This document shows, in pieces, positions 3,013-58,689 of a stretch of 64,000 bases of DNA (position 1 is its first letter; each line of letters begins with the position of its first letter). The notes under the pieces were generated by a model, which had not been told where the DNA came from, did no database searches, and saw only the letters and a list, made by a program, of their open reading frames with translations. The stretch covers positions 28,427,294-28,491,293 of the forward strand of contig NC_088645.1 in assembly GCF_964019385.1 (NCBI RefSeq). Direction: 5' to 3'. The stretch comes from Sycon ciliatum. Lineage: Eukaryota > Porifera > Calcarea > Leucosolenida > Sycettidae. The position numbers and the translations under genes were made by a program.

Positions 3013-3480
3013 GATCAGACAGATTACACTAAAGAAACGAAGAGAAAAGCACACGCAGCGAAAATTCGCAACTGTACAGCAGCAGTGCAAGAACAAAAAG
3101 AACACTGTCTTCAGACCAGCATGCACCTTCATGTGCATGCTGCAACTCCGCACTGTGCAGCCAGTGCGTACCACACTCCCAGCACAGTCCGTGAACTCTG
3201 GACTGTGCACTCGCGTTTCGAAAAGAACAGCATTTCTTGTTTACTTCGTTGCTCTCATCCAACAAGAAATGAGACATTTCTCTGTGAGTAGTCACAGGCA
3301 GAATATAGGTATATCTGTATTACAAGAGAGATTGGAGGCTTTGTCACAACTCTGAGTTTCACGTATTACTACGATCGTCAGGCAACTGATGGCTCCTAAA
3401 CGGGCAGCCTGAACATAAGGGGGTGCAAGGGGTTAGGTGGGAAATTCTAAGGGGTATCATAGGCGACGGGTATTATAGTG
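3013..3480. other. Leader region of the DIRS element, no gene seen
   Basis: Sequence upstream of the DIRS ATG. It contains no recognisable coding exon. The terminal repeat of the element probably lies somewhere here, but its partner is outside the window, so its ends cannot be set. Confidence 0.35.
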
Positions 3481-4747: not shown

Positions 4748-5224
4748 TAGGCAGCGGGACTACCAGCTAGATTCACGTGACCTTGCGGACAAAGTTACGG
4801 AAGTAGAACTAGTTTTCATGACGACACTTGGACACAAGTACTTCTGTATTATTATTTTATCTCTTTTCAACCAATCCACAAGCCAAGAAGAGATGCGTAG
4901 ACGGAAGAACCGTACTCTTGGTGATACTGACCGCAAACATGATTAATTCCTCCAGGCCATTGAGCACCCAATTCTAAACCTTATCTAAGCAACGCAGCAT
5001 GCCAGTTCAAGAACATCTCGTCAGACATACATATCGATACATGTCTGGTGCACTCTCACTAACAAGCAGGCATCGCAGGCTACATTCGCACCAGCAATCA
5101 AAAGAAGTTGAAGTGAGTGAATATTTCCATAAAATTAATAATTGGAAGACAAATGAAGGTGTGGAGGATCGCCCAAAAACACTGACAAGGAGACAGTAAA
5201 CGGTACACAGTACTCGTATGCATG
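4747..5224. other. No gene recognised
   Basis: Short random open frames only. No domain, repeat pair or RNA gene was recognised between the microsatellite and the Tc1-like element. Confidence 0.4.
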
Positions 5225-14840: not shown

Positions 14841-17012
14841 TTAAAAACACAATGTCTCTGTCAGACTCATCGCGCAAATTAGTTGCGGGTTCCCATGTAG
14901 CTTCGTCGACAGGATAGCCCTGCCAATGGACCAGGTCCTCTCGCTGCCCCTACGTTCTCGGTGATCAAGAATTTCTTCGACCATGAACCGTGTGTTTCCA
15001 TCGAGGTCAGTGAATGATGGTGGTGGAGGTTGCTCTCTGCCAGGAATAGCGTTTTCCTCATACCGCCGCAAGGCAGTAATGTTGAAGACGGGATGGCAAC
15101 GAATCGTGCGAGGAAGCTCCAAACGATATGCGTTTGAGCTAATCTTTGCCTGCACGCGGTAGGGCCCAAACCACCTTGGCCGCAGCTTCCGGGACGGTTG
15201 AAGACGGGCCTCTGGCGTTAGCAAGAAGTCCTTATAAACAAGCTCCATATCACCAACCTTTAACTGGCTGGGAACCCTTCCACGGTCTGCGTACAGCGCC
15301 TGGCGTGCTTGAGCGGCCACTGAGGCATCACGGGCAATGTCTAATGCATCACGTTGTTGCTCAGTGATGCTCGATGGACTGGGCCACGTCCGGACAGCGT
15401 TCACCTTCTTCGGGTCAGGTGAAATATGAGAGCCGTTGATGTAATGCCCCAAGAACAGAACTTCCGAAGCGCCGAATTCGCACTTCGATAACTTGCAGAG
15501 CAGTTGGTTCTTCCTGAGCACGTCCAGCACCGTCCGCACATGGCTTAGATGCTCTGACCACGATCTGCTGAATATGAGAATGTCATCCAGAAACACAACT
15601 ACAAAATCTCGTAAGTACGGGCGGAGGATGCTGTTCATCAGAGTCTGAAATGTGGCCGGTGCATTAGTCAGGCCGAAACCCATTACCCGGAATTGATATT
15701 GCCCAAACGGTGTATTGATGGCCGTTTTCTCGACATCGTTCTTCTGAATACGGATCTGATTGTACCCTGATCTTAAATCGAGCTTCGTGAAATACGTGAA
15801 ATACGTGTTCCCCTGGACTGTGTCAAATAGATCATCCACATTGGGCAGGCAAGCCGTATTCTTCACAGTAATTTTGTTAAGATCCCTCCAGTCGCATACC
15901 ATGCGCAAACTGCCATCTGCCTTTTTTACGAAGAACACGGGTGCGCCATACGGGGACTTACTAGGCTCAACAAAACCCTTTGCGAGTAGTTGCTCCAGTT
16001 GCGACTTCAACTCGTCCATTTCAGGCTTGGGGAGACGATAGGCTGGACGTGACGGCGGCGGTGCACCCTCTTCAAGCCGAATCTCATGATCTACGGATCT
16101 TTCAGGTGGAAGTGCTTCCGGCAGTTCATCAGGAAAGACATCGGAATACTCACGAAGCAAGTCAGCAACTTCGGGCTTGTTAGAGTTGGGGATACTCAGA
16201 GGTGGATCAAGACCGGAGTCATCCTCAGCTGTGACCCATGCTAGGAAACCTTGTTCGCCGTTTCTGAGCGCATGACTAGCCTGACAGCCAGAAATGAACA
16301 TGTTTTCGATTTGCGAGTCTCCGTCCTTGTCCTGAGAAGGTGCACTTGGCAGGCCATTCCCGTCCACGATTATTTCGTTGGTCCGGAAATTGATTCGTGG
16401 GTTGTTCCTAGTGAACCAGGGCCTGCCCAATATCGCGTCGTAGCGGGCGAGGGGAAAGACGGTAAACTGCTGTTTCTCCTTGGAGTCGCTGACAACAACA
16501 TCTATGGCATTCGTGGTCTCCATAGCGTGTGAGCTCGTTTTTCCATCCGCTAATGTGACTTTCAGTAATTCCGATCCCAACTCTGTTGGCACCTTGTGTC
16601 TTCGGACGAACACCTCAGAAATGAAGTCGTGGGTTGATCCACAGTCGATCAACACTGTCGCTGCACGGCCGTACAGTTTGGCTTCCACCCGTAGTAGCTC
16701 GTTCTCTTTTTCAGCGACGACACTGCCGACGTGCGCTTCGCGGCTCTTCTTAACATGTTTTTTGGAATCAACACAACTAGTAGCGGTAGCAGCAGCAACA
16801 TCCGCGGCAGGCTCATCTTCTCCGCAATCGACTTCGTCAACCAATAAGTCACTGAAGCGATTCTTCGTGGCGATTGGAGCGGCAGTGGGACAGGGTGGTG
16901 CTCTTCTCAGCGCCAGTGATCGCACCGCTGCCACTGGCGTCCAGAGTTTGGGTGGTGGTGAACTCGCGGGCAATCTCGGGCTAAATGTCCCTGCTGTCGG
17001 CAAGCGAAACAT
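14841..17012 (-). pseudogene. Chromovirus 1 Pol: protease, RT, integrase C-terminus and chromodomain
   Basis: The protease active site reads LIDCGSTHDF (Cys in place of Ser within DSG, which is unusual and may impair it). RT follows, with the MDELKSQLEQLL entry, MVCDWRDLNKIT, LDLRSGYNQI and FLDDILIFS. After GHYINGSHISPDPKKV it jumps to the integrase tail LKVGDMELVYKDF, RPRWFGPYRV and a HPVFNITALR block, so RNase H and the integrase core are deleted. A chromodomain follows (FMVEEILDHR); its second half (HWQGYPVDEATWEP) is in a different frame over 14838-14950, a frameshift. Chromodomains steer integration to marked chromatin. Confidence 0.88.
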
Positions 17013-17571
17013 CTGCCAGCACTCATCAAGCGATTACGGTCTTCTGGCGACAGTCTGGTTGGTCTTCGGATATTTGGTGATCCTGCAGCTATGCCATCTG
17101 GTTGGTGTCGATTCTCGGCCGTTACGGTCAGTTCTGCTTGTATAGCCTTCGACAGTGTTGTCGGATGCTCCTTGAGTACTTCACGCCTCAAATGGCCCCA
17201 GCCTACATGTTCGAAATAAGCCATAGGCGGGCATTGCCCACAAGAAAACTCGAGGCATAAGTAACTTCTTCCTCCTGTGTCGCAAATCCTATGGCTTTTA
17301 TAGCTAAGTCCATGCTAAATACCCACTCCCGAAACAAATCTGCCTCACCGTGAAATGCTGGGGGCTCCTTGACATGGCGCTTGGTAATATTATCGCGAGG
17401 GTGTTCTCTGGTGCTTAGCCCTGGGCTGGATGGGACTTGAAATGGTGTCGCAGGAGTTGGAGTGATGGCGGCCACGAGCCGTCGCAACTCTTGTAGAGCC
17501 AGGTACGCTGTCACGGCGATGACGGTCAGCAGGACCGGAAGGCCAGTACTAGTCAGGTCGATGGAAATCAT
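16907..17571 (-). pseudogene. Chromovirus 1 Gag, frameshifted and shortened
   Basis: The ATG at 17571 lies inside the tRNA primer-binding site. The first frame (17571-17203) has an N-terminal hydrophobic segment (LPVLLTVIAVTAYLAL) followed by QELRRLV, then the Ty3 Gag block FHGEADLFREWVFSMD to GNARLWLI. A second frame (17224-16907) continues to a zinc knuckle CFACRQQGHLARDC. The middle of Gag is missing at the frame change near 17210. Gag then passes into Pol in a third frame. Confidence 0.82.
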
Positions 17572-27019: not shown

Positions 27020-27537
27020 TCTGTAGTTGAGGTTTATCTTTAAGAATTTCTCCACTGCAGTGTTGATCTAGCTAGAGAATGTTTGGAAGAATCATGGCTA
27101 GGAGAGCATACTAAAAATCTGTTGGCGATGAACCGTATTACTGCCACCTATATTTTATGTGTCTACGCAGACTACACATCATGTCTAACTTAAAAGGTAT
27201 CTCGTGTTTGTCTCTTTCTTATCATTGGGCTCATGCAGGGAATAGGGCAAAATAATTTAGACAGCAATTATTGTGTGGCTGCACTAAACGTGGAAGCTTG
27301 CGCTTCCTGCTGACTGGCTTGACACTTGCATGACTTATGGCTGCTATTCAGAGCACATGAACAGCCTGTCGCACCTGCCACTGGGCAAACTTGCAAGAAA
27401 GCCCTCCCTCTTTAATATAGAGGGAATTGACCAATCATCGGCTCGGCTTGTGGAGGCCTGTTAACGTTCTGCTCCGAGAGGACTGAATTATGTAGTGTTT
27501 TCCAAGTCCAATTATCACTAAGGATATGTGTAACATT
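27020..27537. other. Intron-like sequence, no gene recognised
   Basis: No exon, repeat or RNA gene seen. Confidence 0.4.
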
Positions 27538-31636: not shown

Positions 31637-32345
31637 TATTATTATTATTATTATTATTATGAAATGACCCAAAGGCAATGTGCCTATCGAGGGGTTCATT
31701 TGATTGAAAGAACAGTAGATGTAGATGTATGTACAAAGAGAAGTAGGGATTGATGAGGAGAGAAATGGGGAAAATCAACTGCAAGGTGGCGGAATTCCGT
31801 TGATTGCATAAGCAAAGTCAGCTGTAAATTTCCTGAGGGCAGCTTTGAACTTATAGAGCGAGGCTTCCGATGTTAGACTGGGGGGTAAACAGTTCCATAG
31901 AATAGCAGTTCGGAACATGAAGAGAGACTTAGACAATGATTTAAATTTGGGAAGAATGATTTTATTTGGTCGTCGCTCACTATTCGTAATCTTGAAATGG
32001 AAATCAGCAAGGTAATCACGATGATGGAAAACATATCTGTGAAAAGTAGTGAGACTGATGATTTGACGACGATAGGCTAGTGACTCTAGGGAGCATTTAG
32101 AATTTAAGACAGATTTGGAAGAAGTGTAATCAAATGCAATTTTTTTCTTTTTCAGTAGAGCTCTAGCAAACCTTGCCTGTAATTGATCAAGAGTGGTCAT
32201 GGGTTTCTTATTAGATCCAAACGACCACACCGTACAGCAATATTCGATCACAGGTCTTACGAACCCTTTGTACAGTATGATCATTGCCGAAGGCGCAAGT
32301 TGCTGGGACATAATTGACCGTAGGTGCACTCGATATCTGAACTTC
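31637..32345 (-). mobile_element. 5'-truncated LINE (CR1/L2-like), 3' end
   Basis: The RT C-terminal region (31775-32329) is followed by a 3' UTR ending in a conserved hairpin-like tail (CCAAAGGC...GCCTATCGAGGGG complement) and an ATT microsatellite (31637-31660). The 5' end is cut off where the next LINE's tail begins. Confidence 0.85.
31775..32329 (-). pseudogene. LINE RT C-terminal fragment
   Basis: Encodes MIILYKGFVRPVIEYCCTVW, LDQLQARFARALL and the ILWNCLPPSL block typical of the thumb/C-terminal region of CR1/L2 and jockey-group RTs, to a terminal stop. The catalytic RT core is absent. Confidence 0.88.
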
Positions 32346-32580
32346 GAAGTTATTTATTATTATTATTATTATTATTATTTGAGGGATTCCCCAAAGGCCG
32401 AAGCCTAAATCAAGGGGGTCTCCGAGAATAAATATACGTGTACAATGCGTGTGCAATAGGGTGCAATTCTTAAAAGAAAGAAAATATTACGATAAAAAAA
32501 GATTAATGTGAAGAGGTTAAATAAGAAGTCTGAGTAGAAGCAAGCGAAAAGGGTACTGGTAAAGAAGGGGGGGGGGGTAA

Positions 32581-35480
32581 TCAGGAAGTGAGAAAACCTC
32601 GAGGATGGAATCTATACCTGTGGAAATGGGACTTAACGTGCTGGCTAAATACACCACGGGTTTCAGATATCCTAATCTCGGTAGGCAGGGAGTTCCACGT
32701 GGTGATCATGGAATGTAGTAGAGTGGATCGGAAACAGGGACCAGTGTGAGTGGGCAGGAGGTAAAAGTGGGGACGTCGTGCACTCTTGGATAGAGCTATG
32801 TTGAGATTATTGAGGGTTTCCGGGTATTGGCGGGTGAAATGGTAAAACAGTTTGAGGCAATGTATATGCCGCCGCCACGCAAGACTTTCCCATTCAGCAG
32901 CTTCAAACACGTTCTCCATGCCATGAGGAATGGGCACTTTCCGACGGTGTAAATACTGCCTGGCCACGCGTGCTTGCAATCGTTCCAAAGTGTCAATATT
33001 TCCTGCGGTCAGTTTGTTATTCCACAGAGGTGAAGCATACTCAATGGAGGGACGGACGTATCCTTTGTAGAGGCGGGCAATGAGAGCAGGGGTCAGATTG
33101 GGTGACATGTAGGATAGCAGAACAACGCGACGACGAAAGTTGGAGGTGACACTATTGATGTGGGTCTGGAAAGACAGGCGGGGATCCAGGGTGATTCCTA
33201 GATTGCGGTGGGTAGTCGAGGGACATAGGTCTGCAGCATCCACACGCAGTGCCGGGGCAGGAGTCTGGGCGGGGTCAAGTTTGCCGAATACAACACGCAC
33301 GGATTTAGCGGCATTAAACCTGCCACCAAATGTAGCAGCCCAGTCCATCACCATGTTCACTGCTGACTGGAGCTGTTGAGGTGCTGCTGCTGGCGGTCGG
33401 GATAATCCCAGCGCAGTATCATCAGCATAGAGGTATGTTTCCGTCCTGTTGCCATCAGGGATTGATCTCGGGAGGGTATTAATGTACAGGAGAAATAGGA
33501 TGGGGCCAAGGTGGGAACCTTGAGGAACTCCCGCAGAGATAGGGGCGAGGGGGGAAAGGTCTTCTCCAACTTTGACCTGTAACTTGCGAGCTGCAAGGTA
33601 ACCTGCAAACCAAGTAGTAGCCGTTGGGTTGCATAGTGGTTGTAGAAGGGCCAGAAGGGTAGAATGCGGGACGCGATCAAATGCCTTGGCAAAATCCAAG
33701 AAGACCACATCATACTCCTGGCTGCTGTCCATGCTCTTGGCGGCGCTAGCCGTTAAATGTATCAGTTGGTCAACTGTGCTCCGACCGTGTACAAACCCGA
33801 ACTGATCCGAAACTATTAAATCTTCATTCCTAAGGAACCTGCTAAGACGGTGCGCGACAATCGAATCAAGCACTTTGGCGACCGAGTTCAAGAGAGAAAT
33901 AGGGCGGTAGTTCTGGGGTTCAGCTGTGGAACCTCTCTGCTTATATATTGGTACAACTTGCGCCGTTCTCCACGATGGTGGCAGGCGGCCTTGTGTTATA
34001 CGTAAATTAAAGACTTTGCAGAGGGAGTGGGCAATGACACCAGCGGTCTCCTTCAGAATGCGGTTCGGGATGTCACCACCGGCAGCTTTATGGACAGGCA
34101 ATCTCTTGAGAGTATCAAAGACGTCGTAGGCAGATATAACTGAGATATCGAAGGGGGATGTTGGCGTAGGTGGGGGGTGCGGATTAGGTAGTTGTTGGGT
34201 GTGGGTGTTGGAGCATTGGTTGGAGAACACGTCAGCCAGCAAGTGCGCCTTGGATGCGTCTGTGGTTACAACCTCGCCTCCAGACTCAAGGGATGGAATT
34301 GGTGCACGCGTTTTAGATATATTGGTGAGCTGTTTGGCTTGGCGCCACCACTGGTACGGACTTCGTTCTCTGTCAACCCGTGCGCTCATGTTCTCCAGGT
34401 AGATTGCTTTAGAACGTCGGACGGAGGCTTGATAGGCATTGCGGGCAACTTTAAAGACAACCCAGTGGGTTGTTAAGTTTGTACGCTTGGCTAAACGGAA
34501 AAGGCGGTCTTTTTTCTTGCAAAGAGTGGCATGGCGGCCAGTGTACCAGGGTGTATCTGTTCTTCGCTTTGTGGAAATAGTTCTCATAGGCACGTGTGAC
34601 GAGATTGCCGTAGTAATGCAGGAATGCCAACTATCCCACGCTTGCTCAACTGAGGACATACTACTGATGTCAGACGAAAGTGGAAGATTCCATATGTGGT
34701 CTCTGAGTGCATCAAAATCGGTGTTTACGTAATCAGGAACGGCACGTGACTGACTGGGAGATGACTGGGCAAGGGAAGGCAAAGCAACTTTGAAGACAAC
34801 GGGACAGTGATCGGAAATGGAGGACAGCACTTGAATGTCACATACATGCTGTGGTGTGTTTGTGATGACAAGATCAAGGAGCGATGGACCCTGGCGGCCA
34901 GTGGCAGAATATCTAGTCGGGGTGTTGTGGACGAGTTGGATGAATCCAAACCGGTCTAATGCTTTGAGTAGAAGCTTGCCTTCTGCTGTAGACGGGTCTG
35001 TAGAGTTCCATGTACGTAGTTTAGCGTTGAAGTCACCCACTAAGATTGTGGGCAAGTGTGGCTGGTTCTGTTCAAAGGTACGGCTGAAGGAAGTGAAAAA
35101 TTGGTCGCGCTCGTCTACGGTACGATGTGGCGGGCGGTAGAAGACATGAAAGGCCATTGGAAGCTGTTGAGTGATGCTTACTTGAAGACAGAGATGTTCT
35201 ATGTCCGGGCCCTCCATTTGTGGCAGCCTAGTAATCCTGTGGGAAAGACTGGATTTGACATACACTGCTATACCTCCTCCTGTGCTGCCTAGTATGGCTG
35301 TCCTTCGGTCACTACATAGTTAGGGATATTTACACTGTGGTCGGGGAGGGATAGAAAAAACCAAGTCTCAGTGAGAAAAAGAATATCTATATCGTGATAT
35401 TTAATGAATGCTTCTAAAATAGAGAGTTTTCTAATTGCACTTTGGCAATTGAGGTGTGCAACTCGGAGCCCCGGAGGTTC
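32581..35480 (-). pseudogene. LINE ORF2: AP endonuclease and reverse transcriptase, one frameshift
   Basis: The endonuclease starts HLNCQSAIRKLSILEAF, DIDILFLTETW (35460-35330). A frameshift near 35315 moves to the long frame, which begins within RRTAILGSTGGGIAVYVK. It continues with VGDFNAKL and SDHCPVV (endonuclease catalytic motifs), then RT: NYRPISLLNSVAKV, FLDFAKAFDRVPH, PQGSHLGPILFLLYIN, YLYADDTAL (near 33425) and the LGITLDPRLSF block. It ends with TWNSLPTEIR and a short tail. The domain order is complete for a CR1/L2-type ORF2 of about 950 residues. Confidence 0.9.
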
Positions 35481-36822: not shown

Positions 36823-37480
36823 TTATATTAAGGCGACATGTTTGTGGAAATCCAGGTTGTCGGTCAAGGTGATGCCAAGATGTTGCAGTTCAGAAACCAC
36901 CGTTAATGGCTCATTGTACATTTGGTATTGGATTCCTGCAGTAGGTGTATCATTGATAGCTCTATGGCACAGCACGGATGTCTTGCTTGCTGAGAATTCA
37001 CCTCCATTGTTCCTGCCCCATGTTTGACATGCATCGAGATCAGACTGCATGTTCGCTCTACTGGCGAGGGTGTCTTCAGGTTTGTTAGCCAGTAGGAGGG
37101 TGACATCATCTGCAAATAGATATTGCGTGCAATGTTGCATAGCGTTGGGCAGGTCATTTATATAGAGTAGGAATAGGAGTGGTGAAAGGTGGGAACCTAG
37201 AGGCACTCCGCAGTTGATGCTCTGCTTCTTCGATTTAGTGCTATGTACCTTCACTTCAATTTGTCGATCCCCTAAGAAGCTCTTCAGCCATTTTACTGAC
37301 GAAGCTGTAGCAATCTTACCGAATTTCTTTAGGAGTATAGAGTGGTCGACCCGGTCGAAAGCTTTCCTGAAATCTAGAGATATCAGGTCAAAATTAGTGC
37401 CATTATCAATATTCACAGCCATTGATTGGGTTAGCAAGATACGTTGGTCCGTTACAGACTTGTTGCGTACATATGCTAGT
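36823..37480 (-). pseudogene. LINE RT core fragment
   Basis: Reads SVTDQRILLTQSMAV, LDFRKAFDRVDHSIL, GVPLGSHLSPLLFLLYINDL, FADDVTLL and the LGITLTDNLDFH block, then stops. Lacks endonuclease and C-terminus. It is directly followed by the hammerhead-bearing tandem array. Confidence 0.88.
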
Positions 37481-37875
37481 GCACTCCAGGCACAAACATC
37501 ACTAGGGATACAAACTTACAGAGACGCTCCATTTCCAGCGCGACGAACACCTCGTAAACACCAGATAGCAGCGTGAGTCAGTGTCGCTCCTGGACGGTGA
37601 GACAGACGTCGAGCACCCTCGGTCATTCGCAACGCTGTCACCTCCAAACCAACTAGTCGCAAGCCCGCGCTGGGCACAACAGAACGAAGTAGTGGTTGCG
37701 ACTTCGGCGATGATTTGTAAGAAAGGGTTTCCTCTCCATACTGCTCTCCACACTGGAGCTCGCGCTATTTCGCCGACTTTACTTGACACTTGACTGACTC
37801 ACTACTGCCATCCAGAGCACACGAGAAGTCCATCGAACCTTCGATTCGAGAACCTGCAAGAAAGCACCACTCCCT

Positions 37876-37921
37876 GCTCAATACACAATGTTTCGGGGAA
37901 TTCACCCCTCATCAGTTGAGC
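37876..37921 (-). ncRNA. Hammerhead ribozyme, unit 1 (intact core)
   Basis: Minus strand: stem I GCTCAA/TTGAGC (6 perfect bp), core CTGATGA, stem II GGGG/CCCC with a TGAATT loop, core GAAA, stem III ACA/TGT with a TTG loop, cleavage triplet GTA. Predicted cleavage lies between 37882 and 37881. All invariant bases are present. Confidence 0.9.
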
Positions 37922-38353
37922 TTGAGTAGGCTGAGGAAGATTGTGACTGAAGAGCACCACTTATATAGAGCTCTCCAGGCACAAACATCACCAGGGATAC
38001 AAACGTACAGAGACGCTCCGTTGCCAGCGCGACAAACACCTCGTAAACACCAGATAGCAGCGTGAGTCAGTGTCGCTCCTGAACGGTGAGACAGACGTCG
38101 AGGACCCTCGGTCATTCGCAACGCTGTCACCTCCAAACCAACTAGTCGCAAGCCCGCGCTGGGCACAACAGTACGAAGTAGTGGTTGCGACTTCGGCGAT
38201 GATTTGTAAGAAAGGGTTTGCTCCCCACACCGGAGCTCGCGCTATTCCGCCGACTTTACTTGACACTTGACTGACTCACGACTGCCATCCAGAGCACACG
38301 AGAAGTCCATCGAACTTTCGACTCGGCAAACCTGCAAGAAAGCACCACTCCCT

Positions 38354-38399
38354 GCTCAATACACAGTGTTTCGGTGAATTCACCCCTCATCAATTGAGC
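38354..38399 (-). ncRNA. Hammerhead ribozyme, unit 2 (core mutated)
   Basis: Same fold as unit 1, but the core reads TTGATGA (the invariant first C is changed) and stem II has one lost pair. It is probably inactive or slow, so units 1 and 3 would stay joined here. Confidence 0.85.
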
Positions 38400-38824
38400 T
38401 TGTGTAGGCTGAGGAAGATTGTGGATGAAGAGCACCACTTATTTAGTGCTCTCCAGGCACAAAAATCATCAGGGATACAAACTTACAGAGACGGTCCGTT
38501 TCCAGCGCGACAAACACCTCGTCAACACCAGATAGCAGAGTGAGTCAGTGTCGCTCCTGGACGGTGAGACAGACGTCGAGGACCCTTGGTCATTCGCAAC
38601 GCTGTCACCTCCAAACCAACTAGTCGCAAGCCCGCGCTGGGTACAACGGTACGAAGTAGTGGTTGCGACTTCGGGGATGATTTGTAAGAAAGGGTTTGCT
38701 CCCCACACCGGAGCTCGCGCTATTCCGACGACTTTACTTGACTGACTCACGACTGCCATCCAGAGCACACGAGAAGTCCATCGAACCTTCGACTCGGCAA
38801 ACCTGCAAGAAAGCACCACTTCCT

Positions 38825-38870
38825 GCTCAATACACAGTGTTTCGGGGAATACACCCCTCATCAGTTGTGC
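38825..38870 (-). ncRNA. Hammerhead ribozyme, unit 3 (intact core)
   Basis: Core CTGATGA and GAAA are intact, stem II GGGG/CCCC, stem III ACA/TGT, triplet GTA. One mismatch in stem I (GCACAA against TTGAGC). Confidence 0.88.
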
Positions 38871-39302
38871 TTGAGTAGGCTGAGGAAGATTGTGCCTGAA
38901 GAGCACCACTTTTATAGTGCTCTCCAGGCACAAACATCACCAGGGATACAAACTTACAGAGACGCTCCGTTTCCAGCGCGACAAACACCTCGTAAACACC
39001 AGATAGCAGCGTAAGTCAGTGTCGCTCCTGGACGGTGAGACAGACGTCGAGGTCCCTCAGTCATTCGCAACGCTGTCACCTCCAAACCAACTAGTCGCAA
39101 GCCCGCGTTTGGCACAACAGTACGAAGTAGTGGTTGCGACTTCGGCGATGATTTGTAAGAAAGGGTTTGCTCTCCACACTGGAGCTCGCGCTATTCCGCC
39201 GACTTTATTTGACACTTGGCTGACTCACGACTGCCATCCAGAGCACAGGAGAAGTCCATCGAACCTTCGATTCGGCAAAACTGCAAGAAAGCACCACTCC
39301 AT

Positions 39303-39348
39303 GCTTAATACACAGTGTTTCGGGGAATTCACCCCTCATCAGTTGAGC
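39303..39348 (-). ncRNA. Hammerhead ribozyme, unit 4 (intact core)
   Basis: Core and stems II and III are as in unit 1. One stem I mismatch (TTAAGC on the 3' side). Confidence 0.88.
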
Positions 39349-39614
39349 TTGAGTAGGCTGAGGAAGATTGTGACTGAAGAGCACCACCTTTATAGTGCTC
39401 TCCAGGCACAAACATCACCAGGGATACAAACTTACAGAGACGCTCCATTTCCAGCGCGACAAACACCTCGTAAACACCAGATAGCAGCGTGAGTCAGTGT
39501 CGCTCCTGGACGGTGCGACAGACGACGAAGACCCTCGGTCATTCGCAACGCTGTCACCTCCAAACCAACTAGTCGCAAGCCTGCGCAGAGCACAACAGTA
39601 CGAAGTAGTGGCTT

Positions 39615-39766
39615 GCCGAGTCGAAGGTTCGATGGACTTCTCGTGTGCTCTGGATGGCAGTCGTGAGTCAGTCAAGTGTCAAGTAAAGTCGGCGGAATAG
39701 CGCGAGCTCCGGTGTGGGGAGCAAACCCTTTCTTACAAATCATCGCCGAAGTGGCAACCACTACTA
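39615..39766 (+). repeat. Inverted segment of the retrozyme unit at the array edge
   Basis: The last partial unit breaks at GTAGTGG and continues with about 150 bp that are the reverse complement of the next stretch of the unit. This is a local inversion that ends the array. Confidence 0.8.
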
Positions 39767-40553
39767 AGTCTCATATTTACAGTAGTTTAAAAAATAAATA
39801 AAAAATAAAAAGTGCTTTGTCCGGAGTGACAGCAGCGCTAGCTGCATGTGAAGGAGCATAACATCTAGTTGGTAGCTGTGATTGTGGATAAATTGTGAAC
39901 TGCCCTGCACTTGTGTATAAATAACCTCCAGTCCAAGAACTGACGGCGCTCCAGCAAGGGCGGCTGGTGAAGAAGGGACAAGAGGTGTTCAAGGAAATAC
40001 GGTGCATTGGTTTCAAACTGCTGAGGAGGAAAAAGTTAACCTCTCCGTCCCATTCTGGCTGTTCCTAGTATACTGCTACTACTGACTGCACATTCTGCAC
40101 GAATTTTTCCTGATTTTACGACTTTTGTCTATACGTCGACTGTCCAAAATGTAGCGCTCATTTATTGCTTGTCTTCGAGATAAAGTGCTCCTGGTTGCTC
40201 ACATATTCGAAAACCGGCGCTTAGTGCCCGTTTGGCGCCAGCACCAACTCCCAAGGCCAAATTTAAACAAAGCGAAAGGGAATTGTACATGAGCGTCACG
40301 GGTCATGTTGGACGTGCAAGAACGCGAAATAAGAACGTAGCCTAGGGCACTGAAAAATAAGAACTTTGCTAGGTTTTCCCTCTGAAACTGCCTTCTTGGG
40401 CGTACGAGTCTACTCTACAAGTATACACTCAAGGCCACATATTTCATCTTTTTTTTCTGTTTCTGCCTCATATTTAGATCCTAACAACACAGAGAGTGGT
40501 AACTGATGTGCCACTGGTTCACGTCCTCCGTTTTTTAATTTTGCCTAGAAGTA
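39767..40553. other. No gene recognised
   Basis: AT-rich start, no domain or repeat recognised. Confidence 0.4.
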
Positions 40554-41196
40554 CAGTCTGTATCGGCTATAGAGTGACCGGATATAAGAATATATCGGCT
40601 ACAGTGATATTGGTACGAAATATTAACTACACCATAGCTCAGTGGTTAGAGCATCGCTAGCTACAAGCGAGGGTCCCTGGTTCGAGTCCTGGTGGTGACA
40701 GTCGATTTTTTCTTCAGACTTTCCCCGTTTGTCTCTTTCCCTCAAACTAGTGAAAATATAAAAAGCAAAACGTATTTCATCCTGTAAAAATATCACTATA
40801 ATCAATATTATCGGATGTAATGATATATCGGATATTATGATGGCAACAAAGAATCAAAACATGCAGAACACACTATATTATTATCGGCTATAGTGATCAC
40901 TTAAAAAAAATACAAAGGCCCTATTTTTTTTACTTCTTTTTCACGTTTTTTTATTTTTATAGTGATACATGTACATGTACATAACATAATTTTTTATGGA
41001 AATGCGGGCACTGTCAACTATGCAGCATACTCATTTTGTCAAAACGCCATGTTGGAAGTATTTCCTTGCCTTTCATGTGTCGATCGAAAAAAAAGAAAAG
41101 AAATCGATCGTATCGCATAATTAATTATAGTGATGCATCGGTTATAGTGATAAAATCACGGAAATCGAAAGGGTACGCTATAGCCGATACAGACTG
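40554..41196. mobile_element. pogo/Tigger-like non-autonomous DNA element with TA flanks
   Basis: Ends CAGTCTGTATCGGCTATAG are inverted at 41177-41196, flanked by TA (40552-40553, 41197-41198). Subterminal motifs of the type ATCGGCTATAGTGAT and CGGATATTATGA repeat inward, as in pogo/Tigger relatives. No transposase. The interior contains a tRNA-derived SINE. Confidence 0.75.
40628..40755 (+). repeat. tRNA-derived SINE, family 2, copy 1
   Basis: The head has A-box TAGCTCAGTGGTTAGAGCA and B-box GGTTCGAGTCC at tRNA spacing. The anticodon arm does not give a regular loop (T33 is out of place), so this is a tRNA-derived sequence, not a clear functional tRNA. A shared body follows (CTTCAGACTTTCCCCGTTTG), matched by the copy near 63740-63875. 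Confidence 0.7.
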
Positions 41197-42930: not shown

Positions 42931-45900
42931 TTAGCACAAGCCAAGCGGACATAGTCGCGTGATAGGGCGTGTCTTCTCCTTGCCGCCCACAAGCACCTTA
43001 GCCACTCGTACATGCCCATCTGGACCAGGAAAGACTGCCGTGATTCTTCCCAACGGCCAGTGCCCTCGTGGCGTGTCGGGATGAAGAACTAGTACCATAA
43101 TAACAGCCAAGTCCCGATTGATCTTGATCCACTTGCGACAAGCATTGAGCGTCGGAACCCATTCCTGTAGCCAGCGCTTCCACACTTGGCGTATTACGTC
43201 CTGCACTAACCGCCATCTCTTCTCTGGGCTGAACTCTGTCGTGTCGACGCTCGCAGGTGCAGGCTGCCCGTTAGCGTGTCCCGTCAGAAAGTGCAACGGG
43301 GTAAGCGGGGTGTTGTCGTCAGCACTGGCGCTCTGGTATGTCAGAGGCCGAGAATTGAGGAGCGCCTCAATTCCGACAATGGCCGTCGTCAGCTGCTCAT
43401 CAGTTAAGACGCCTGGAGAGTTGCCGAGAATAGCAGTCAATGCCTTCTTGGCTGCTTTAATCATGACCTCGTGGACTCCTCCATGGTGTGGGGCCAATGG
43501 CGGATTGAAATGCCACACCACTCCTCGGTTTGCCAGAGACCGCTGGATGGCATCTTGGTCGAGCTGTTGCACAAGGGCTAGCAATTCCTTGTTGGCTCCC
43601 ACGAAGTTTGTGCCATTATCGGACAACATCTCTAACGGCAGTCCACGTCGGCCGACCATCCGCGTGAATGCATTCAGAAAGGAGTCGGTGTCTAGTGCAT
43701 AGCTCATCTCCAGGTGGACGGCACGGCACAGCAGACAAGTGAACAGGCAGAGGTATCGCTTCTGTTGAACTCGTCCTCGACCTTGCTTGGTCAAGAATGG
43801 CCCTCCATAGTCCACAGAACACCGGGCAAACGCGCGCAGTGGAGTTTTCAATCGCATAGCCGGCAAGGGGGCCATCACTTGTTCCACGGGCTTTGCCTTG
43901 CGACGACGACATGTATTGCATTCTCGTTCCCACTCGCGGATCATTTCCCGAGCGCCTTCAATCCAATAGTGGGTGGTTAGCGCGGCAAGAGTCTCGTTCG
44001 TTCCACCGTGCTGCCGCATCTCATGGTGCTCTTTCACGATGAGACGTGTTACGGGGTGCCGGCGCGGCAATAAGATTGGATGGCGCACATCGAAAGGCAA
44101 ATTGTCTGCCAGTCGGGTTCGTCCGGACGCTCTCAAGAGACCAGCGTCATCTATCACAGGCTGCAGCTTTCCTAGATGTGACTTGGCCGGTAAGGGTTTG
44201 TGCTGCTGCCCTGCTTCAATAACATCCTTGAACTCTTCGTGTTGAGCTTCCAGGATGATGTCGTTCTCAGCCTCACTTAGCTCCGCTACGGTCAGCTCCC
44301 CGCTTCGCTTCTCGGCACGGCGACAGTTGTCAAGGAAGCGGTTGACCCAAGCCCAAACTCTTTTGTAACGCAGCCAACTGGAGGAACGATGTGGCGCAAG
44401 TCTTCCTTCTCCCCTTCCGTCACCTGTGACGGTTTCTTGCTCGTTAGCAGTCGAGTTTGCCATCAGCGTCACTTTCCTGCTCTCTTGGTCGACCTCGTGT
44501 GAGAATGAGGCGGGTCCCACTGGCCACTGCGCTGGTTTGTTGTGCAGGAAGGGCGGTCCCTCCCACCACAATGTACAACTACTTAGCTCCGCAGCCGAAG
44601 TGCCACGAGATGCGAGGTCAGCCGGATTCTGTCCAGATGGCACATGACGCCATTGCTGCGGCTGTGTCATCGTCTGGATCTCTCCAACACGGTGCGCTAC
44701 AAATGGCTTGAAGTTACGGCTTGGACTTCTGATCCACCAGAGAACATCAGCACTGTCGCTCCAGAAGGTCACCTCGGACATTGGCCACTCCAGCACTTGG
44801 CACACAGTTTCGGCCAGATGCAAACCGAGAATGGCAGCCAAAAGCTCCAATCGTGGAATGCTAATTACCTTGAGTGGAGCAACTCGGGTCTTAGCAGCTA
44901 CCAGGCGAGTCTGTACAGTACAATCCTAGCTTAGGTCCCGGCTGTACGCTACAGCTCCATACGCCACCATTGACGCATCTACGAACACATGGATAGAGCT
45001 GTCTCCGGCTGGCCCGCTAGGGAACAGGCAACGAGGTATATTGACGGCAGACAGCTGTGTTGCTCCCGAGCACCACCGTCGAAACTTGTCGGCTAATGGC
45101 CCTATCACCTCGTCGTCCCAGTCGACGCCGAGTGCCCAGAGCTCCTGAATTAACACCTTGCCGACTGTTACAAATGGTGCCACAAATCCTAGCGGGTCGA
45201 ACAGCTTGGCAATTTGACTCACCACCTGGCGTTTGGTCACCTTGTTCACTTCCTGGAAGGCAGGCTGGAATTGGAACACATCATGTTGCGCTACCCATCT
45301 GACTCCGAGCGCTTTCATCGTCGGCAGGCTTCCATCATTGAGCTCCAGTGCAGACAGCCGGTTCTCCGCGGGTATCTCGGCTAGCACCGCAGGCGAATTA
45401 CTCAGCCATTTCCGTGCCTTCATGCCGGCTGCAGCCCAGATCAGTGACAACTCTTGGTACATTTGCACTGCCAGTTTGTCGTTGGCTACTGAATCAAGAG
45501 TATCGTCCATGTATGTGGACTTCAACACACCATTGGCGCCTAGCGGGTGAGTCGACAGATACTTTGATGCATGTTCCTGCGTCACAAGATGGGCGACGAA
45601 CGGAGAAACATTCAGGCCAAAGACCAGCCGCTCAAACTGATAGACGTCCGGTTGAGCATCGCTCTGCGGTGGTCGCCACAGGAAACGCAAGTACGGTTGA
45701 TCCTCGGGGTGAATTCGAATCTGAAGATACATCTCCCGATTATCACAGACGATGGCTACGGGGTTGCGTCGAAATCTGAGCAGCACATCCAATAGCTCTC
45801 GCTGCAACTTTGGGCCCGGCTCTATGCAGTCGTTTAAGGCCACTCCATCGCACCTTGCAGCCGCGTCAAACACCAGTCAAACTTTGGTTGTACTCTTAAC

Positions 45901-46791
45901 CGTCCGGATGACAGGGAAATGTGGCAAGTACCATGCCTTTTCCGCTGCAACTGTTGTCGCCAGTCGCCTCACATAGCCCTTGGCTTCATACTGTTCGATT
46001 GTGCTGCTGTATGCCTCTGCAATAGACGGATCACGGTTCAGCCGGCTCTCCGTGTTGCGTAACCTCTTCAACGCCATGCTGTAGTTGCCGGGCAGTTGCG
46101 ACTTTCGCTCATTCCATGGCAGACGAATCTCGTACCCAGCCCCGTCGAGTTGCCGCATTGACTGCTCAACTTCAGCCTTCACACTGCGGTCTTTCATGTT
46201 CCAGGGGGGCTCAGGGCTGATGCCGCCTTGATCAACTTCCCAGAACCGTTGCAAGCAGTTGTAAAGCGGGTTCAGCTGTACGCCACAGTAGGTGCTGTTG
46301 GCGCGAGTTGATCGATCATCATGGTGCAATACAGCTCCGATACATGTCCAACCTAACGGCGTTCTGCGAGCTAGCGGTTCTCCTGGCTTGCCATTGACTT
46401 CTTCCAAGGCAGAATGCAATTCACTGTGATCGCTGCCAATTAGAACGTCCACTGATTTCTCGGTGAGAGCCGGGAAGGGAACATCGCGCAGGTGGTCCCA
46501 TTGCGCTGCCGCATTCGCCCAGTCAACGGCCTTTAAGTTGCTTGCGATGTTATCAATGGTTAGCGCTGTTAATTTGGACTGGAATGTTCCGTCAGCGCTT
46601 TCCACTGTGATGTTGACCGGCGTCGTGACGAATGTTTCCGTCAGCCCACTCAGAAGAGAAACCGATGCCTGCTGCGGTCTTCCTGCCACCCTCAACTGGC
46701 CGGCAGCTGCAGTGGTTATGTAGGTGGTAGTGCTGCCATCGTCCAACATAGCGTTAACCCGTAGCCGTACTCCTTCATGCACAAGCGACAC
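42931..46791 (-). pseudogene. BEL Pol: protease, RT, RNase H, integrase (two in-frame stops)
   Basis: One frame interrupted by a TGA (45877-45879) and a TAG (44926-44928). Protease: NAMLDDGSTTTYI active site and LIGSDHSELH. RT: MYLQIRIHPEDQPYLRFLW, FGLNVSPFVAH, STYMDDTLDSV, then LFDPLGFVAPF. RNase H: VFVDASMVAYGAVAYS, MELLAAILG and TFWSDSADVLWWI. Integrase: the HHCC finger (EHHEMRQHGG ... CNTCRRR), DDE residues in VDYGGPF, SDNGTNF and GGVHEVMIKAAKK. A DUF5641-type C-terminus (GHWPLGRITAVFPGPDGHVR) ends it. The order RT-RNase H-integrase with the DD-GST protease is diagnostic of BEL/Pao. Confidence 0.92.
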
Positions 46792-49739
46792 CGGGAGGAT
46801 GCGTAACGAGACTGATGGTACTCCAAGGGCCGATCTTCACCCAGATCCGGCTCCCCTTCCGTGATGTCGCATGCTTGGATGGAGCAATTAATAGAGGCTG
46901 GCTCTCTTGCAGGTGTTGTTGCCCCTCTTGTGCTGATTGAAGCTGTAGGAGCGCTTGACGATGCTGCATCACTGCTCATGGCTGCTTCAGACAGGTTCCG
47001 TTTCTGCTGCGGTTGACGATCATGAAGCAGCTGGTGATGTGTCTGACTGCAGCCACTGACGCCGCACTTCCTGTTTCTGGTACAGGATGTCCCTCGATGT
47101 CCAGTGCCAAGGCACCTATAGCAGAGGCCTTTCTTCTTTGCTGTTTCCCACCGCCTGCTGGGCGACTCGCTCTTGAAGATGTCACAACTCCATGTGTGAT
47201 GAGGCGCATCACATACTGCACACTGGATTTTGGCAGCGCTCTGACCAGAGGCCAGGAATGACGACGCGTGGGCTCCGGAGCTGCCACCGAACGTTGGTCG
47301 ACTTCTTGCAGGGGCTGGTTTAGTCGGCAGCGCCGCTGCATGATGACCATCCGCAGAACTGACTCCGTGGGCCATCTCCGCTGCTCCAGTAGCGAATTCT
47401 GCCTCGAGAGTCACCCATTCCAATAGCGTTGGTACACTGCTGGGTTTCGTGTTGTTGTGACGCCAACGGTTAAACTGGGTCGGCATGGGCATGGGCAGCT
47501 TGTTTTGCAGCTGTCGGAACAGAAGACCATCGCCCAGCTCATATTCCTTGCCTGCATCCGCCATGTTCACTATCAGCACATCCAGCAAATCGGCGAATTT
47601 CTGCAGGTCTCCAGGCCGGCCTGTCCGGAGGGCGGGGAACGACTCTACTTCCTCAAATTGGAGGTTTGTTTGCCTCTGCTCGCCACCAAATTTCCTGTCT
47701 AAACGGTTTACGGCAGCTTCGTAGGCATGGGCCGAGTAGCCTAGGCTCTCGATGGCGACCAATGCCTCTCCACCTAAATACTGCTTCAGGTGCAGCAGCT
47801 TCACCTCCGGACTTGAGCTTGTCTGCCCAACACAAGCCATGAAGGCTGCTCTCCAGGCACGATAGGCTCTCTTGTTGCCTGTGAACGTTGGAATTTGTAT
47901 GGGTTTCAGCCGCCGGAATATCTCGTCCGATGACTGCTGATGCCGCGTTTGGCCTGGTGCTACTGATGGCACCGGTACTGGTGCGGCAGTCGACCCTGCT
48001 GGTTGCAAACCCATGGCCTGTGGAGCGGGCGGGCTCCACAGACTTGCTGCTGGCACAGTGTGCACGCCGGCCACACCACTGGCGCCAGACCACTGCCGAG
48101 ACGCAGATGTAATTACTGGCGACTGAGTAGTGGTGTGACGGGTGTCAACGGATTGCTGGAATAGCGTGGCAGAAGCGGATCCAGGCGGCCTGCCGATTGC
48201 GCTGAATAGCGTTGCAGGTACGGATGATCCAGACAGTCTGTCGATTGCGCTGCTTCCGCTGACTGTCTGCTGGGATGCAGGCATCTCTGCCTCTGGCCTC
48301 ATTCCGTTTGCGTTGTTGGCGCTGGCAATCTGGAGTGCTAACGTTTCAGGGGGTGACACAGGTAGGTTGCTGGTCATGCTGATCGCTCCAGTGCCGTTCG
48401 CGCTGTTTGCGCTGATCAATCCCCAAGGTGCTGATCCTGCAGCTAGCGCAGAGGTCACAGGCTGTGCGCTCACAGGCTGTGCGCTGTCCGCGCTGGTCTG
48501 AATTTCCGACGCGTGCACAGGCCCGGATCCAGGCGGCCTGCCAATTGCGCTGAATAGCGTTGCAGGCTCGGATCCAGGCGGCCTGCCGGTTGCGCTGAAT
48601 AGCGTTGCAGGCTCGGATCCAGGTGGCCTGCCGGTTGCGCTGAATAGCGTTGCAGGCACTGGTGCAGACTCTGGATCTGACGCATGTGGTGCGCCGCTCG
48701 CGCTCATCTGGGGAACAGCCGCGGACAAAGGCGGACCGCGTGTCGCTCTGTTCGCGCTGTCCAAGTGCCCGGTGGCGCCAGACTCTAAAGCGGCACCAGC
48801 TGGCGCGCCGCTCCCTCCAACCTGCGCCGCAGCCGCGGACAAAGGCGAGCCGCTTGCCGCTCTGCTCGCGCTGACCTGGGTCTTAGACGGAGTGAGCGCT
48901 CTGCGGACCAACGGCGTCTCTGGTCGCAACTCATCCGTGCCCATGGTGACTTTCGGTCCGCTTTCGCTGACCGCCTTGTACTTGTCTTCGATGACTTCAG
49001 CAAGACCGTACTCCGTTCCCCGGTGCTGGTCTGCAACTGTTACTTGCTCTACGCCGGCTGACCGGCTCGTCGGCTCGTACGTGTAGCCATGGTAGCCGTA
49101 GTCGTACGCTAGTCCACGTGCAGCAGTAGACTCCGAGGCCTCAACTGAACTTCTGCCGTGCGCGTGCAGGTAGCTCCGGGCTCCAGCCCAACTGGGCATA
49201 GTGCTTGCGGCAGGTCCGCTGTATCCGTACCCGACCTCCGAAGCTAGTTCGCGTCGAGCCTGGACTGGGTGGGGCCGCTGTGAGACGCCCAGGTAGTAAG
49301 TTTCCTCCGCGTAACTGCGTACCTGCCCACGTACGTCCTCCAAAATGCTCTCGGTTGCGGTAGTGAATTGTTCCTCGAGCAATTCCGCTTCCCGCAGCGT
49401 TCCTTCCATACGCTTCTCTTCGTTAGTTGAGCTGTACACACTGACGAGGTTCATGATAGCACTGGTGGCGTTGTCATAATGTGAGCTTAGCTCGGCTAGC
49501 TCGTCGTTAGCTTGCTCTCCTCGCACTCCACCATTCATGGAGCGCACGAGAAGTGTCCGCCGCGCGTTAGTGAAGTGTTTTTTAGCCACCATCTTTTCTC
49601 TAAGCAGCTCGCTAAGCTTCTCGCGCTTGTTCTCTACTGCCGCTGGTTCTTCTCGGTGGTTTGCTTCCTCGGTGCTGGCAGTCCCGTCCTCCGCGTCATG
49701 GCTGTCTTCCTCCTTGTCCTCTTTGACTGGAGACTCCAT
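46716..49739 (-). CDS. BEL Gag with DUF1759 and zinc knuckles
   Basis: A 1007-codon intact frame from a Met with acidic N-terminus. A coiled-coil-like region (about residues 40-150) is followed by a long Ala/Pro/Ser-rich repeat region with three tandem copies of an ATLFSATGRPPGSEP motif. The DUF1759 Gag domain follows (PIQIPTFTGNKRAYRAWRAAF, LKQYLGGEALVAIESLGYS). Two zinc-knuckle-like clusters come next (CAVCDAPHHTWSC; CYRCLGTGHRGTSC). It overlaps Pol by 76 bp in another frame, so Pol needs a frameshift or one is a mutation. Confidence 0.9.
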   Translation of the reverse strand: MESPVKEDKEEDSHDAEDGTASTEEANHREEPAAVENKREKLSELLREKMVAKKHFTNARRTLLVRSMNGGVRGEQANDELAELSSHYDNATSAIMNLVSVYSSTNEEKRMEGTLREAELLEEQFTTATESILEDVRGQVRSYAEETYYLGVSQRPHPVQARRELASEVGYGYSGPAASTMPSWAGARSYLHAHGRSSVEASESTAARGLAYDYGYHGYTYEPTSRSAGVEQVTVADQHRGTEYGLAEVIEDKYKAVSESGPKVTMGTDELRPETPLVRRALTPSKTQVSASRAASGSPLSAAAAQVGGSGAPAGAALESGATGHLDSANRATRGPPLSAAVPQMSASGAPHASDPESAPVPATLFSATGRPPGSEPATLFSATGRPPGSEPATLFSAIGRPPGSGPVHASEIQTSADSAQPVSAQPVTSALAAGSAPWGLISANSANGTGAISMTSNLPVSPPETLALQIASANNANGMRPEAEMPASQQTVSGSSAIDRLSGSSVPATLFSAIGRPPGSASATLFQQSVDTRHTTTQSPVITSASRQWSGASGVAGVHTVPAASLWSPPAPQAMGLQPAGSTAAPVPVPSVAPGQTRHQQSSDEIFRRLKPIQIPTFTGNKRAYRAWRAAFMACVGQTSSSPEVKLLHLKQYLGGEALVAIESLGYSAHAYEAAVNRLDRKFGGEQRQTNLQFEEVESFPALRTGRPGDLQKFADLLDVLIVNMADAGKEYELGDGLLFRQLQNKLPMPMPTQFNRWRHNNTKPSSVPTLLEWVTLEAEFATGAAEMAHGVSSADGHHAAALPTKPAPARSRPTFGGSSGAHASSFLASGQSAAKIQCAVCDAPHHTWSCDIFKSESPSRRWETAKKKGLCYRCLGTGHRGTSCTRNRKCGVSGCSQTHHQLLHDRQPQQKRNLSEAAMSSDAASSSAPTASISTRGATTPAREPASINCSIQACDITEGEPDLGEDRPLEYHQSRYASSRCRLCMKEYGYGLTLCWTMAALPPT

Positions 49740-49791
49740 AGCCGCGCTTAGGTGGAACGTTCAGTACTTACGAGGTCGACTCGACTTAATT

Positions 49792-53313: not shown

Positions 53314-53788
53314 GTAAAATGGCAATAAATAAGATAAATTGTGCACTCATAACAACAGCAAAAATGAAGAAAGTCAAGTTCCATAACGTTTTCTTGTGAC
53401 TGTCATCAGTGGAACGCCGTCACATAAAAATGTAATAACTAAAACACACACTTATATACATGTAGCTAATATGGTTTCAGGTAGAAATACAGCAGCTAAC
53501 AAGTACAAAAAGCGAAGTTTGCACCTTTGCAATGTGTGAATATAGTGTCACATACACTATATTCACACATTGCAAAGGTGCAAACTTCGCTTTTTGTACT
53601 TGTTAGCTGCTGTATTTCTACCTGAAACCATATTAGCTACATGTATATAAGTGTGTGTTTTAGTTATTACATTTTTATGTGACGGCGTTCCACTGATGAC
53701 AGTCACAAGAAAACGTTATGGAACTTGACTTTCTTCATTTTTGCTGTTGTTATGAGTGCACAATTTATCTTATTTATTGCCATTTTAC
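53314..53788. repeat. 475-bp near-perfect palindrome
   Basis: Arms 53314-53548 and 53554-53788 (235 bp each) are reverse complements with a 5-nt spacer (CACAT). No differences were seen in the stretches compared. Each arm is a shortened copy of the repeat at 50808-51495. Confidence 0.92.
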
Positions 53789-57263: not shown

Positions 57264-57767
57264 TGGGCCAGCTATCTCCTCTCATCTGGCAATTATCACG
57301 GCCTTCGGCCATCACACTCATACTCCCACACTCCTGCCTCCTAACGGGCATTGCACTTCGTGCGTGGGCCGTCCACACTCCGTCCATTTCATGGGCGCCC
57401 ATCTCATGGGCTGCACTTTGTGCGTGGACATACATACACACTATCATACAGGCCGTCCACACTCCGCCCAGTTCATGGGTGCCCATTCATGGGCTGCACC
57501 TCGTGTGCGTGGGCCGTCCACACTCCGTCCATTTCATGGGCGCCCATCTCATGGGCTGCACTTTGTGCGTGGACATACATACACACTATCATACAGGCCG
57601 TCCACACTCCGCCCAGTTCATGGGTGCCCATTTCATGGGCTGCACCTCGTGCGTGGACTATCCTACATGATTATCACATGCCAGATTCGGTTGCCCAGCA
57701 CTCCATGAATCCTCCATATGATGTGTGCTCTCCACTGGTCTGCAATAGCGAGTGCATGCGTGTTAAT
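57264..57767 (+). repeat. Ngaro B1 repeat with internal tandem units
   Basis: 504 bp, near identical to B2. Contains two units of about 145 bp, each with GGCCGTCCACACTCCGTCC and CGTGGACATACATACACAC, giving long artefact frames. Confidence 0.9.
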
Positions 57768-58185: not shown

Positions 58186-58689
58186 TGGGCCAGCTATCTC
58201 CTCTCATCTGGCAATTATCACGGCCTTCGGCCATCACACTCATACTCCCACACTCCTGCCTCCTAACGGGCATTGCACTTCGTGCGTGGGCCGTCCACAC
58301 TCCGTCCATTTCATGGGCGCCCATCTCATGGGCTGCACTTTGTGCGTGGACATACATACACACTATCATACAGGCCGTCCACACTCCGCCCAGTTCATGG
58401 GTGCCCATTCATGGGCTGCACCTCGTGTGCGTGGGCCGTCCACACTCCGTCCATTTCATGGGCGCCCATCTCATGGGCTGCACTTTGTGCGTGGACATAC
58501 ATACACACTATCATACAGGCCGTCCACACTCCGCCCAGTTCATGGGTGCCCATTTCATGGGCTGCACCTCGTGCGTGGACTATCCTACATGATTATCACA
58601 TGCCAGATTCGGTTGCCCAGCACTCCATGAATCCTCCATATGATGTGTGCTCTCCACTGGTCTGCAATAGCGAGTGCATGCGTGTTAAT
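58186..58689 (+). repeat. Ngaro B2 repeat
   Basis: 504-bp copy of B1; its end marks the 3' end of the element. Confidence 0.92.

Follow-up and report, generated by a model that had tools for sequence, protein, structure and literature searches.

A hammerhead retrozyme family in the sponge Sycon ciliatum with insertion scars like those of Penelope elements

A tandem array in the genome of the calcareous sponge Sycon ciliatum, in which each unit carries a hammerhead ribozyme motif on the minus strand, raises the question of what kind of element it is and which enzyme brought it there. It lies in a 64,000-nt stretch (C3:28427294-28491293 of the 538-Mb assembly), referred to here as the window. 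The initial annotation had read it as a retrozyme-like system, possibly of a new family, moved by a resident LINE, BEL or other reverse transcriptase (RT). We consider it very probable that the array is an old insertion of a non-coding retrozyme whose RNA is cut by its hammerhead, probably circularised, and then used in trans by a Penelope-type RT/endonuclease for copying and insertion; self-cleavage, circularity, trans-mobilisation and promoter use are inferred here from DNA sequence.

Tandem Repeats Finder reported 4.5 copies with a period of 478 and 92% matches (Table 1). Each full unit junction has the layout of a type I hammerhead, a retrozyme trait found in every unit by descriptor and by sequence: GCTCAA pairs with TTGAGC in inner stem I, CTGATGA and GAAA make up the core, stem II (GGGG/CCCC) is closed by a 6-nt loop and the 3-bp stem III (ACA/TGT) by a 3-nt loop, and the cut falls after GTA. 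The cleavage points were re-read directly and by descriptor, and the reported spacing of 478, 471 and 478 was recovered. Three of the four cores are intact as first described, only the 38360 site being altered (C3 to T). The accompanying statement that all three stems close holds at 37882 and fails elsewhere, with an inner stem I mismatch at 38831 and 39309 and a broken stem II pair at 38360; the 37882/37881 site is thus the only defect-free hammerhead, and the remaining three of four are damaged. A strict descriptor matched one site in the window and none in 100 first-order Markov windows, and with one stem I mismatch allowed it matched three sites, compared to one in the 100 Markov windows.

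Table 1. Features of the array and its surroundings (positions within the window)
Feature	Position	Strand	Remarks
Tandem array, 4.5 units of 471-478 bp	37477..39616	-	Minus arm of head-to-head element; direct reading and repeat finding
Opposite arm, unit 28-183, 156 bp, 98% identical	39610..39765	+	Joined head-to-head to array; outer end at S2
Hammerhead, core and all stems intact including outer stem I	37867..37930	-	Cut GTA^T between 37882 and 37881
Hammerhead, core C3 to T; one pair broken in each of stem II and outer stem I	38345..38408	-	Cleavage point 38360/38359
Hammerhead, core intact, mismatches in inner and outer stem I	38816..38879	-	Cleavage point 38831/38830
Hammerhead, core intact, one inner stem I mismatch	39294..39357	-	Cleavage point 39309/39308
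TATA-like TATATAAG (unit 393) and initiator-like stretch TTCAGTCAC (unit 409)	37943..37967	-	Upstream of hammerhead; by sequence only
LINE RT fragment, 5'-truncated	36823..37476	-	Adjoins array at unit 394-395; S1 end expected further out
Decayed solitary piece of the window family	27295..27402	-	75% identical to unit 18-127

The fold predicted at the 37882 site contains stem II and both helices of stem I, the outer of which (CTACTC/GAGTGG), not mentioned in the initial annotation, lies past an internal loop; stem III does not form as drawn. Folded singly, the hammerheads were no better than shuffles at two sites (z -0.32 and -0.01) and gave z of -1.84 and -1.87 at the others. The three full array units, with a GC content of 0.515-0.531, were predicted as circles to be 67-71% paired, each beating its 60 shuffles (z -2.9, -3.5 and -3.6). 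A single long frame in one unit (38469-38936, 155 aa) had no Pfam match at E 0.001, and no open reading frame (ORF) of the Penelope kind, with RT and GIY-YIG, was seen in the array or adjoining it. Around the TATA-like stretch of one unit lies a 27-nt inverted repeat (38880-38943; 81% complementary, 10-nt spacer), which accounts for spurious Rfam miRNA matches at that place; the Rfam miRNA and snoRNA matches in the window were taken as chance or simple repeats.

The initial annotation had held that a covariance search lacking a hammerhead hit would count against the ribozyme. Rfam returned none for the window at the gathering score, none to E 10 in 37000-40200 and none to E 5 over the window. 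We read this as limited sensitivity of the library, because a second hammerhead family of the genome, family B, passes Hammerhead_1 only narrowly (35.4 bits against 34), and two Penelope loci and two loci of the window family gave no hammerhead up to E 0.5. The unit is not confined to this locus: a 26-nt pattern of core and stem II, with up to two mismatches, occurs at 5185 places genome-wide (2644+2541), with a reversed-pattern control of 0. The exact hammerhead had 0 matches in viral contigs, and a version with an open loop had 0 matches in prokaryote genomes. The retrozyme-like character is borne out by these thousands of places, by the tandem units, by a conserved type I hammerhead whose stem III has 3 bp, and by the absence of any protein-family match for the one frame searched. 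The family may also be new: neither a retrozyme in Porifera nor a hammerhead ribozyme in Sycon was found in the part of the literature searched. The array belongs to a genuine retrozyme family that is new within the limits of that search, and the locus in the window is an old, damaged member.

Family architecture was analysed in 54 loci taken from the listed pattern places on contig C1 up to 14.15 Mb, a perfect hammerhead core being required. Parsed by BLAST, 53 of these loci yielded 66 elements: 45 head-to-head, 14 with a single minus arm, 7 with a single plus arm and none tail-to-tail. Arms have their outer ends at either of two discrete sites, termed S1 and S2, which are separated by some 27-39 nt. 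Against the subfamily A reference, 37 outer 3' ends lay at S1 (140-170), 33 at S2 (178-196) and 41 elsewhere, 17 of the latter at position 102, where other subfamilies diverge; in subfamilies C and D the sequence diverges after unit 96-142 and the two-site layout is retained (partly by eye). Both ends could be assigned, taking subfamily into account, in 31 of the 45 head-to-head elements: 30 were S1+S2, one was S1+S1 and none was S2+S2. By our arithmetic, an independent choice at even odds would give at least 30 mixed elements of 31 with a probability near 1.5e-8. Arms span up to 5.18 units without an ORF and run through the hammerhead site. BLAST and a listing of frames likewise showed no ORF with RT and GIY-YIG in the sampled copies, and inspection by eye of the listed arm ends revealed neither LTR nor primer-binding site nor poly(A) end. 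Three pairs of single-arm loci (L038/L053, L036/L073 and L058/L059) have equal element ends and flanks, and are apparently larger duplications that carried the insertion along.

Two further features of the ends were considered and set aside. Inner 5' ends might mark templates that were ribozyme-cut monomers, and ends at unit 1-3 were counted in 4 of 88 inner ends (44 head-to-head elements) against 0.6 expected and in 2 of 21 single-arm ends against 0.1. Nothing is concluded from them: BLAST with a linear unit misses short matches spanning the unit ends, and in three of the four inner cases 14-24 nt at the junction could not be assigned. The second feature is a hairpin predicted ahead of S1 in the tails of subfamilies A, C and D and of Penelope, with stem letters that differ between them. 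Tail structure was nevertheless set aside, since predicted folds of the whole tails do not surpass those of shuffled sequences and the hairpin is absent from family B.

The window array is itself one arm of a head-to-head element, the inverted arm (Table 1) having been absent from the initial annotation. This copy retains the head-to-head join and a single true arm end (S2), and has no target duplication. Its minus-strand units differ pairwise by 4.1-7.5%, well above the medians of the sampled elements, and on this ground the copy is old, provided that its units were alike at insertion. Judging by the translations, a frame at 31775-32353 is read as the continuation of the adjoining LINE RT fragment, split off by another LINE.

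The insertion targets were examined in the same sample. Three ATT/TAA-type triplets lie within 40 nt of an end in 22 of the 45 head-to-head elements, using ends prior to subfamily correction, compared to 76 of 1941 random positions from the same loci. Outside microsatellites, 13 elements had both ends in a site class (L056 and L062 only tentatively), and 8 of them show target duplications of 10-15 bp, with at most one mismatch and up to a few letters common with the element; in a control with mispaired flanks, 8 bp was reached in 1.4%. The family thus has the insertion traits of Penelope-like elements: head-to-head arms, a tail on one arm, an AT-rich target and a short duplication. Arm ends, orientation and targets point to such elements as the mover, in place of the LINE or BEL first proposed.

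Penelope-like elements are present in the same genome. A pattern for their hammerhead occurs at 455 places, and GIY-YIG (PF01541) has at least 13 matches at E 0.001, with 150 of 944 candidates scored; two of the matching loci were examined. L074 has an 807-aa frame with GIY-YIG at 24.5 bits (cut-off 22.6) and no RVT_1 call, and L075 a 749-aa frame with GIY-YIG at 25.4 and RVT_1 at 26.9 bits, below the cut-off of 29.6. The nearest database relatives of the two proteins include Sycon ciliatum proteins, and many of the relatives have RVT_1. Both L074 and L075 (L075/L076) are Penelope-like elements with head-to-head arms and minimal hammerheads. One arm of L074 has the S1 end ...TTCGAGTT, and the other continues 34 nt further along the tail to the S2 end ...CTACTTCGTT; a flanking duplication and a paralogous empty site occur in the same locus (by eye). 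In L075 the first arm ends at S2 and the other at ...CTCTTCGA, which is S1 within a few letters common to the target duplication; this end, one of the four Penelope arm ends, was predicted before it was read. The retrozyme S2 end CTACTTCGTA has nine letters in common with the Penelope S2 end, and outside this motif the unit has no significant DNA similarity to the Penelope loci (best E 0.51). Among the listed places of the Penelope hammerhead, 11 opposite pairs lie under 2 kb apart, all in minus-then-plus order (by eye).

Much of this layout has precedent in Penelope itself. The Anolis Penelope protein cuts and extends both strands and cleaves at 5'-ATT-3'; it starts internally at two sites matching a 30-40 bp tail, the start site being alike on both strands, and the ribozyme is dispensable for insertion in vitro (PMC11167929). 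Penelope inserts are described in the available text of PMC3846280 as head-to-head pseudo-LTRs (pLTRs) with a 31-bp tail optionally on one and duplications of 8-10 bp, and a trans-mobilised gene is described there too. The scar is therefore already known for Penelope elements; the same scar on retrozymes was not found in the literature searched. In the accessible parts of PMC7229834, PMC7761336 and PMC8969392, Penelope elements are named only as likely movers of retrozymes, or 'candidates'.

We envisage the following course of events. Each unit has a TATA/initiator-like stretch, which may serve as promoter, and a type I hammerhead, by which intact multi-unit transcripts would cut themselves to RNAs of ~478 nt; these would probably be ligated to circles. 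A Penelope-like element would supply RT and GIY-YIG endonuclease in trans, and the enzyme would cut both strands of an often AT-rich target. Reverse transcription would begin inside the element RNA on each DNA end: one strand would be started at S1, ~149-161 nt past the hammerhead cut, and the other at S2, ~182-191 nt past it. A cDNA passing more than one unit would form a tandem arm, and the two arms would be joined head-to-head at variable points. We further propose that the Penelope-type RT/endonuclease, perhaps as a dimer, loads S1 on one strand and S2 on the other on hammerhead-made circular RNA, that rolling copying on both strands builds both tandem arms at once, and that animal retrozymes would stand to Penelope as SINEs stand to LINEs; our judgement of this extended proposal is evenly poised. 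The strict one-of-each pairing of S1 and S2 observed here exceeds, and partly differs from, what is reported in PMC11167929.

The nature of the template was approached through unit differences in 24 subfamily A elements. Median differences were 0.26% within the same arm (n=35), 0.65% between opposite arms (n=38) and 2.36% between elements (n=2029), with means of 0.80%, 0.94% and 2.43% and within-element pairs differing by up to 5.8%. Of 61 segments, 41 had their closest relative within the same element. The small distances would suggest that both arms come from one molecule, a notion that was dropped, since for only 25 of 45 segments is the opposite arm the closest or tied for closest. An element probably derives mostly from one kind of RNA that was uncut at the ribozyme when copied, either a circle or an uncut multimer, since units within an element are alike and the arms run through the hammerhead site. 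Column variation was 0.8-0.9% in the hammerhead outside the search pattern, 2.7% in the TATA region and 4.5-8.9% in body and tail; sampling by perfect core is biased to young copies, yet the columns compared are of like age. In 29 diverged elements compared with the window unit, the hammerhead columns gave 2.2% and 5.8%, the latter figure including one column in which it is the window unit that deviates, against 11-24%. Variability in the hammerhead columns is 5 to 10 times lower than in the body, and the hammerhead is the most conserved part of the unit.

It is possible, and we entertain it tentatively, that events ran as outlined above except that the template is the uncut multimeric transcript, the hammerhead serving, for example, in freeing RNA ends or in release. 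Arms cross the hammerhead site, source arrays are themselves multimeric, and unprocessed RNA is the dominant substrate in vitro (PMC11167929). On the other side stand the strong conservation of the hammerhead and the circles shown for coral, mussel and axolotl retrozymes in the available text of PMC7229834, neither of which decides the template. Between the two, a circular template is favoured because the hammerhead columns outside the search pattern vary least.

An improbable reading is that the units are pLTRs of an autonomous Penelope family, seen here as ORF-less copies, with no separate non-autonomous retrozyme. Such copies would have the same architecture and end layout, and pLTRs likewise carry a TATA/initiator-like stretch and a hammerhead. 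However, no unit was seen entering a Penelope frame in the 54 loci, 11 of which have frames of at least 150 aa, listed by length only; arrays free of ORFs reach 5.18 units; and two Penelope loci, of the at least 13 GIY-YIG matches, carry other pLTRs without significant similarity to the unit. Movement of the retrozyme by a LINE or an LTR/BEL element, with inverted arms arising by twin priming, is very improbable: LINE, gypsy and BEL frames do occur in the same window, but both arms start at the same two internal sites and the listed ends have neither LTR, primer-binding site nor poly(A). Twin priming would not yield two arms with the same 3' start region, and is disfavoured on that account. 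Spread of ordinary satellite DNA through unequal crossing-over, its hammerhead being a relic or there by chance, would fit the tandem units and the damage to three of the four hammerheads of the window copy, but is scarcely credible given short dispersed copies with fixed ends, target duplications and a hammerhead that varies so much less than the body.

A retrozyme mobilised by Penelope machinery, our preferred reading, can be placed among known systems. With metazoan non-LTR retrozymes, as characterised in the accessible text of PMC7229834, the family has in common a type I hammerhead in tandem units, a multi-copy and apparently non-coding nature, a unit RNA predicted to be strongly self-paired and coexisting Penelope elements. 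The unit of 471-478 bp is slightly longer than the ~170-400 nt RNAs and 150-450 bp repeats given there. The GC content of 52-53% departs from the values below 50% of metazoan retrozymes in that text; we regard this as a departure and not an exclusion, because the trait is a descriptive one in the portion available and family B has 0.526 too. The same portion was not found to describe head-to-head arms, a pair of end sites or a promoter-like stretch for metazoan retrozymes.

Penelope-like elements, according to PMC11167929 and the available text of PMC3846280, are alike in head-to-head arms, a tail on one arm, short duplications, AT-rich simple targets, a hammerhead and a TATA/initiator-like stretch, and the S2 end ...CTACTTCGT is common to the family and the Penelope of this genome. 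They differ in that the family forms pure multi-unit arrays and no ORF was seen in it, and in its hammerhead stem III has 3 bp and stem I is in two parts, whereas their hammerhead is of minimal form. We therefore claim that the window family works like a Penelope passenger and is not a Penelope element itself. Plant LTR retrozymes, as presented in the accessible text of PMC7229834, are also non-autonomous and hammerhead-flanked, with circular RNA intermediates described, but have a type III hammerhead, LTRs, a primer-binding site and a polypurine tract, 4-bp duplications and a length of ~700 bp.

Family B (~352-bp unit; for example L006 and L019) offers a comparison within the genome. All listed matches among the 1062 places of a generic hammerhead pattern belong to it. 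It resembles the window family in its hammerhead, tandem units, head-to-head arms and two ends, ~36-40 nt apart, one arm ending near 240-244 and the other near 278-284 (L001, L002 and L019). Its sequence is unrelated, and its unit folds as a circle no better than shuffles (z +1.7).

The mover of animal retrozymes is left open in the available portions of PMC7229834 and PMC7761336, and the paired S1/S2 scars make the question directly testable. The pairing also suggests that the optional Penelope tail may record the start from which a given strand was copied. Sycon adds a sponge to the hosts of retrozymes, and places helper and passenger in one genome.

The surroundings of the array are crowded with retroelements. 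Long RT frames lie at 148-3240, 14841-17033, 32581-35319 and 42931-49760, among which are one with a gypsy-like protease, one with Pao/BEL domains and one LINE with an endonuclease; the first also has a weak Dam match below the cut-off. A tRNA match (38 bits) near the array, at 40630-40697, may represent a gene or the head of a SINE. A long palindrome at 53501-53601 scores as a hairpin on both strands. Two 145-bp tandem duplications (57360-57651 and 58282-58573), ~920 bp apart, have the same consensus, period and score, and are probably the product of a local duplication.
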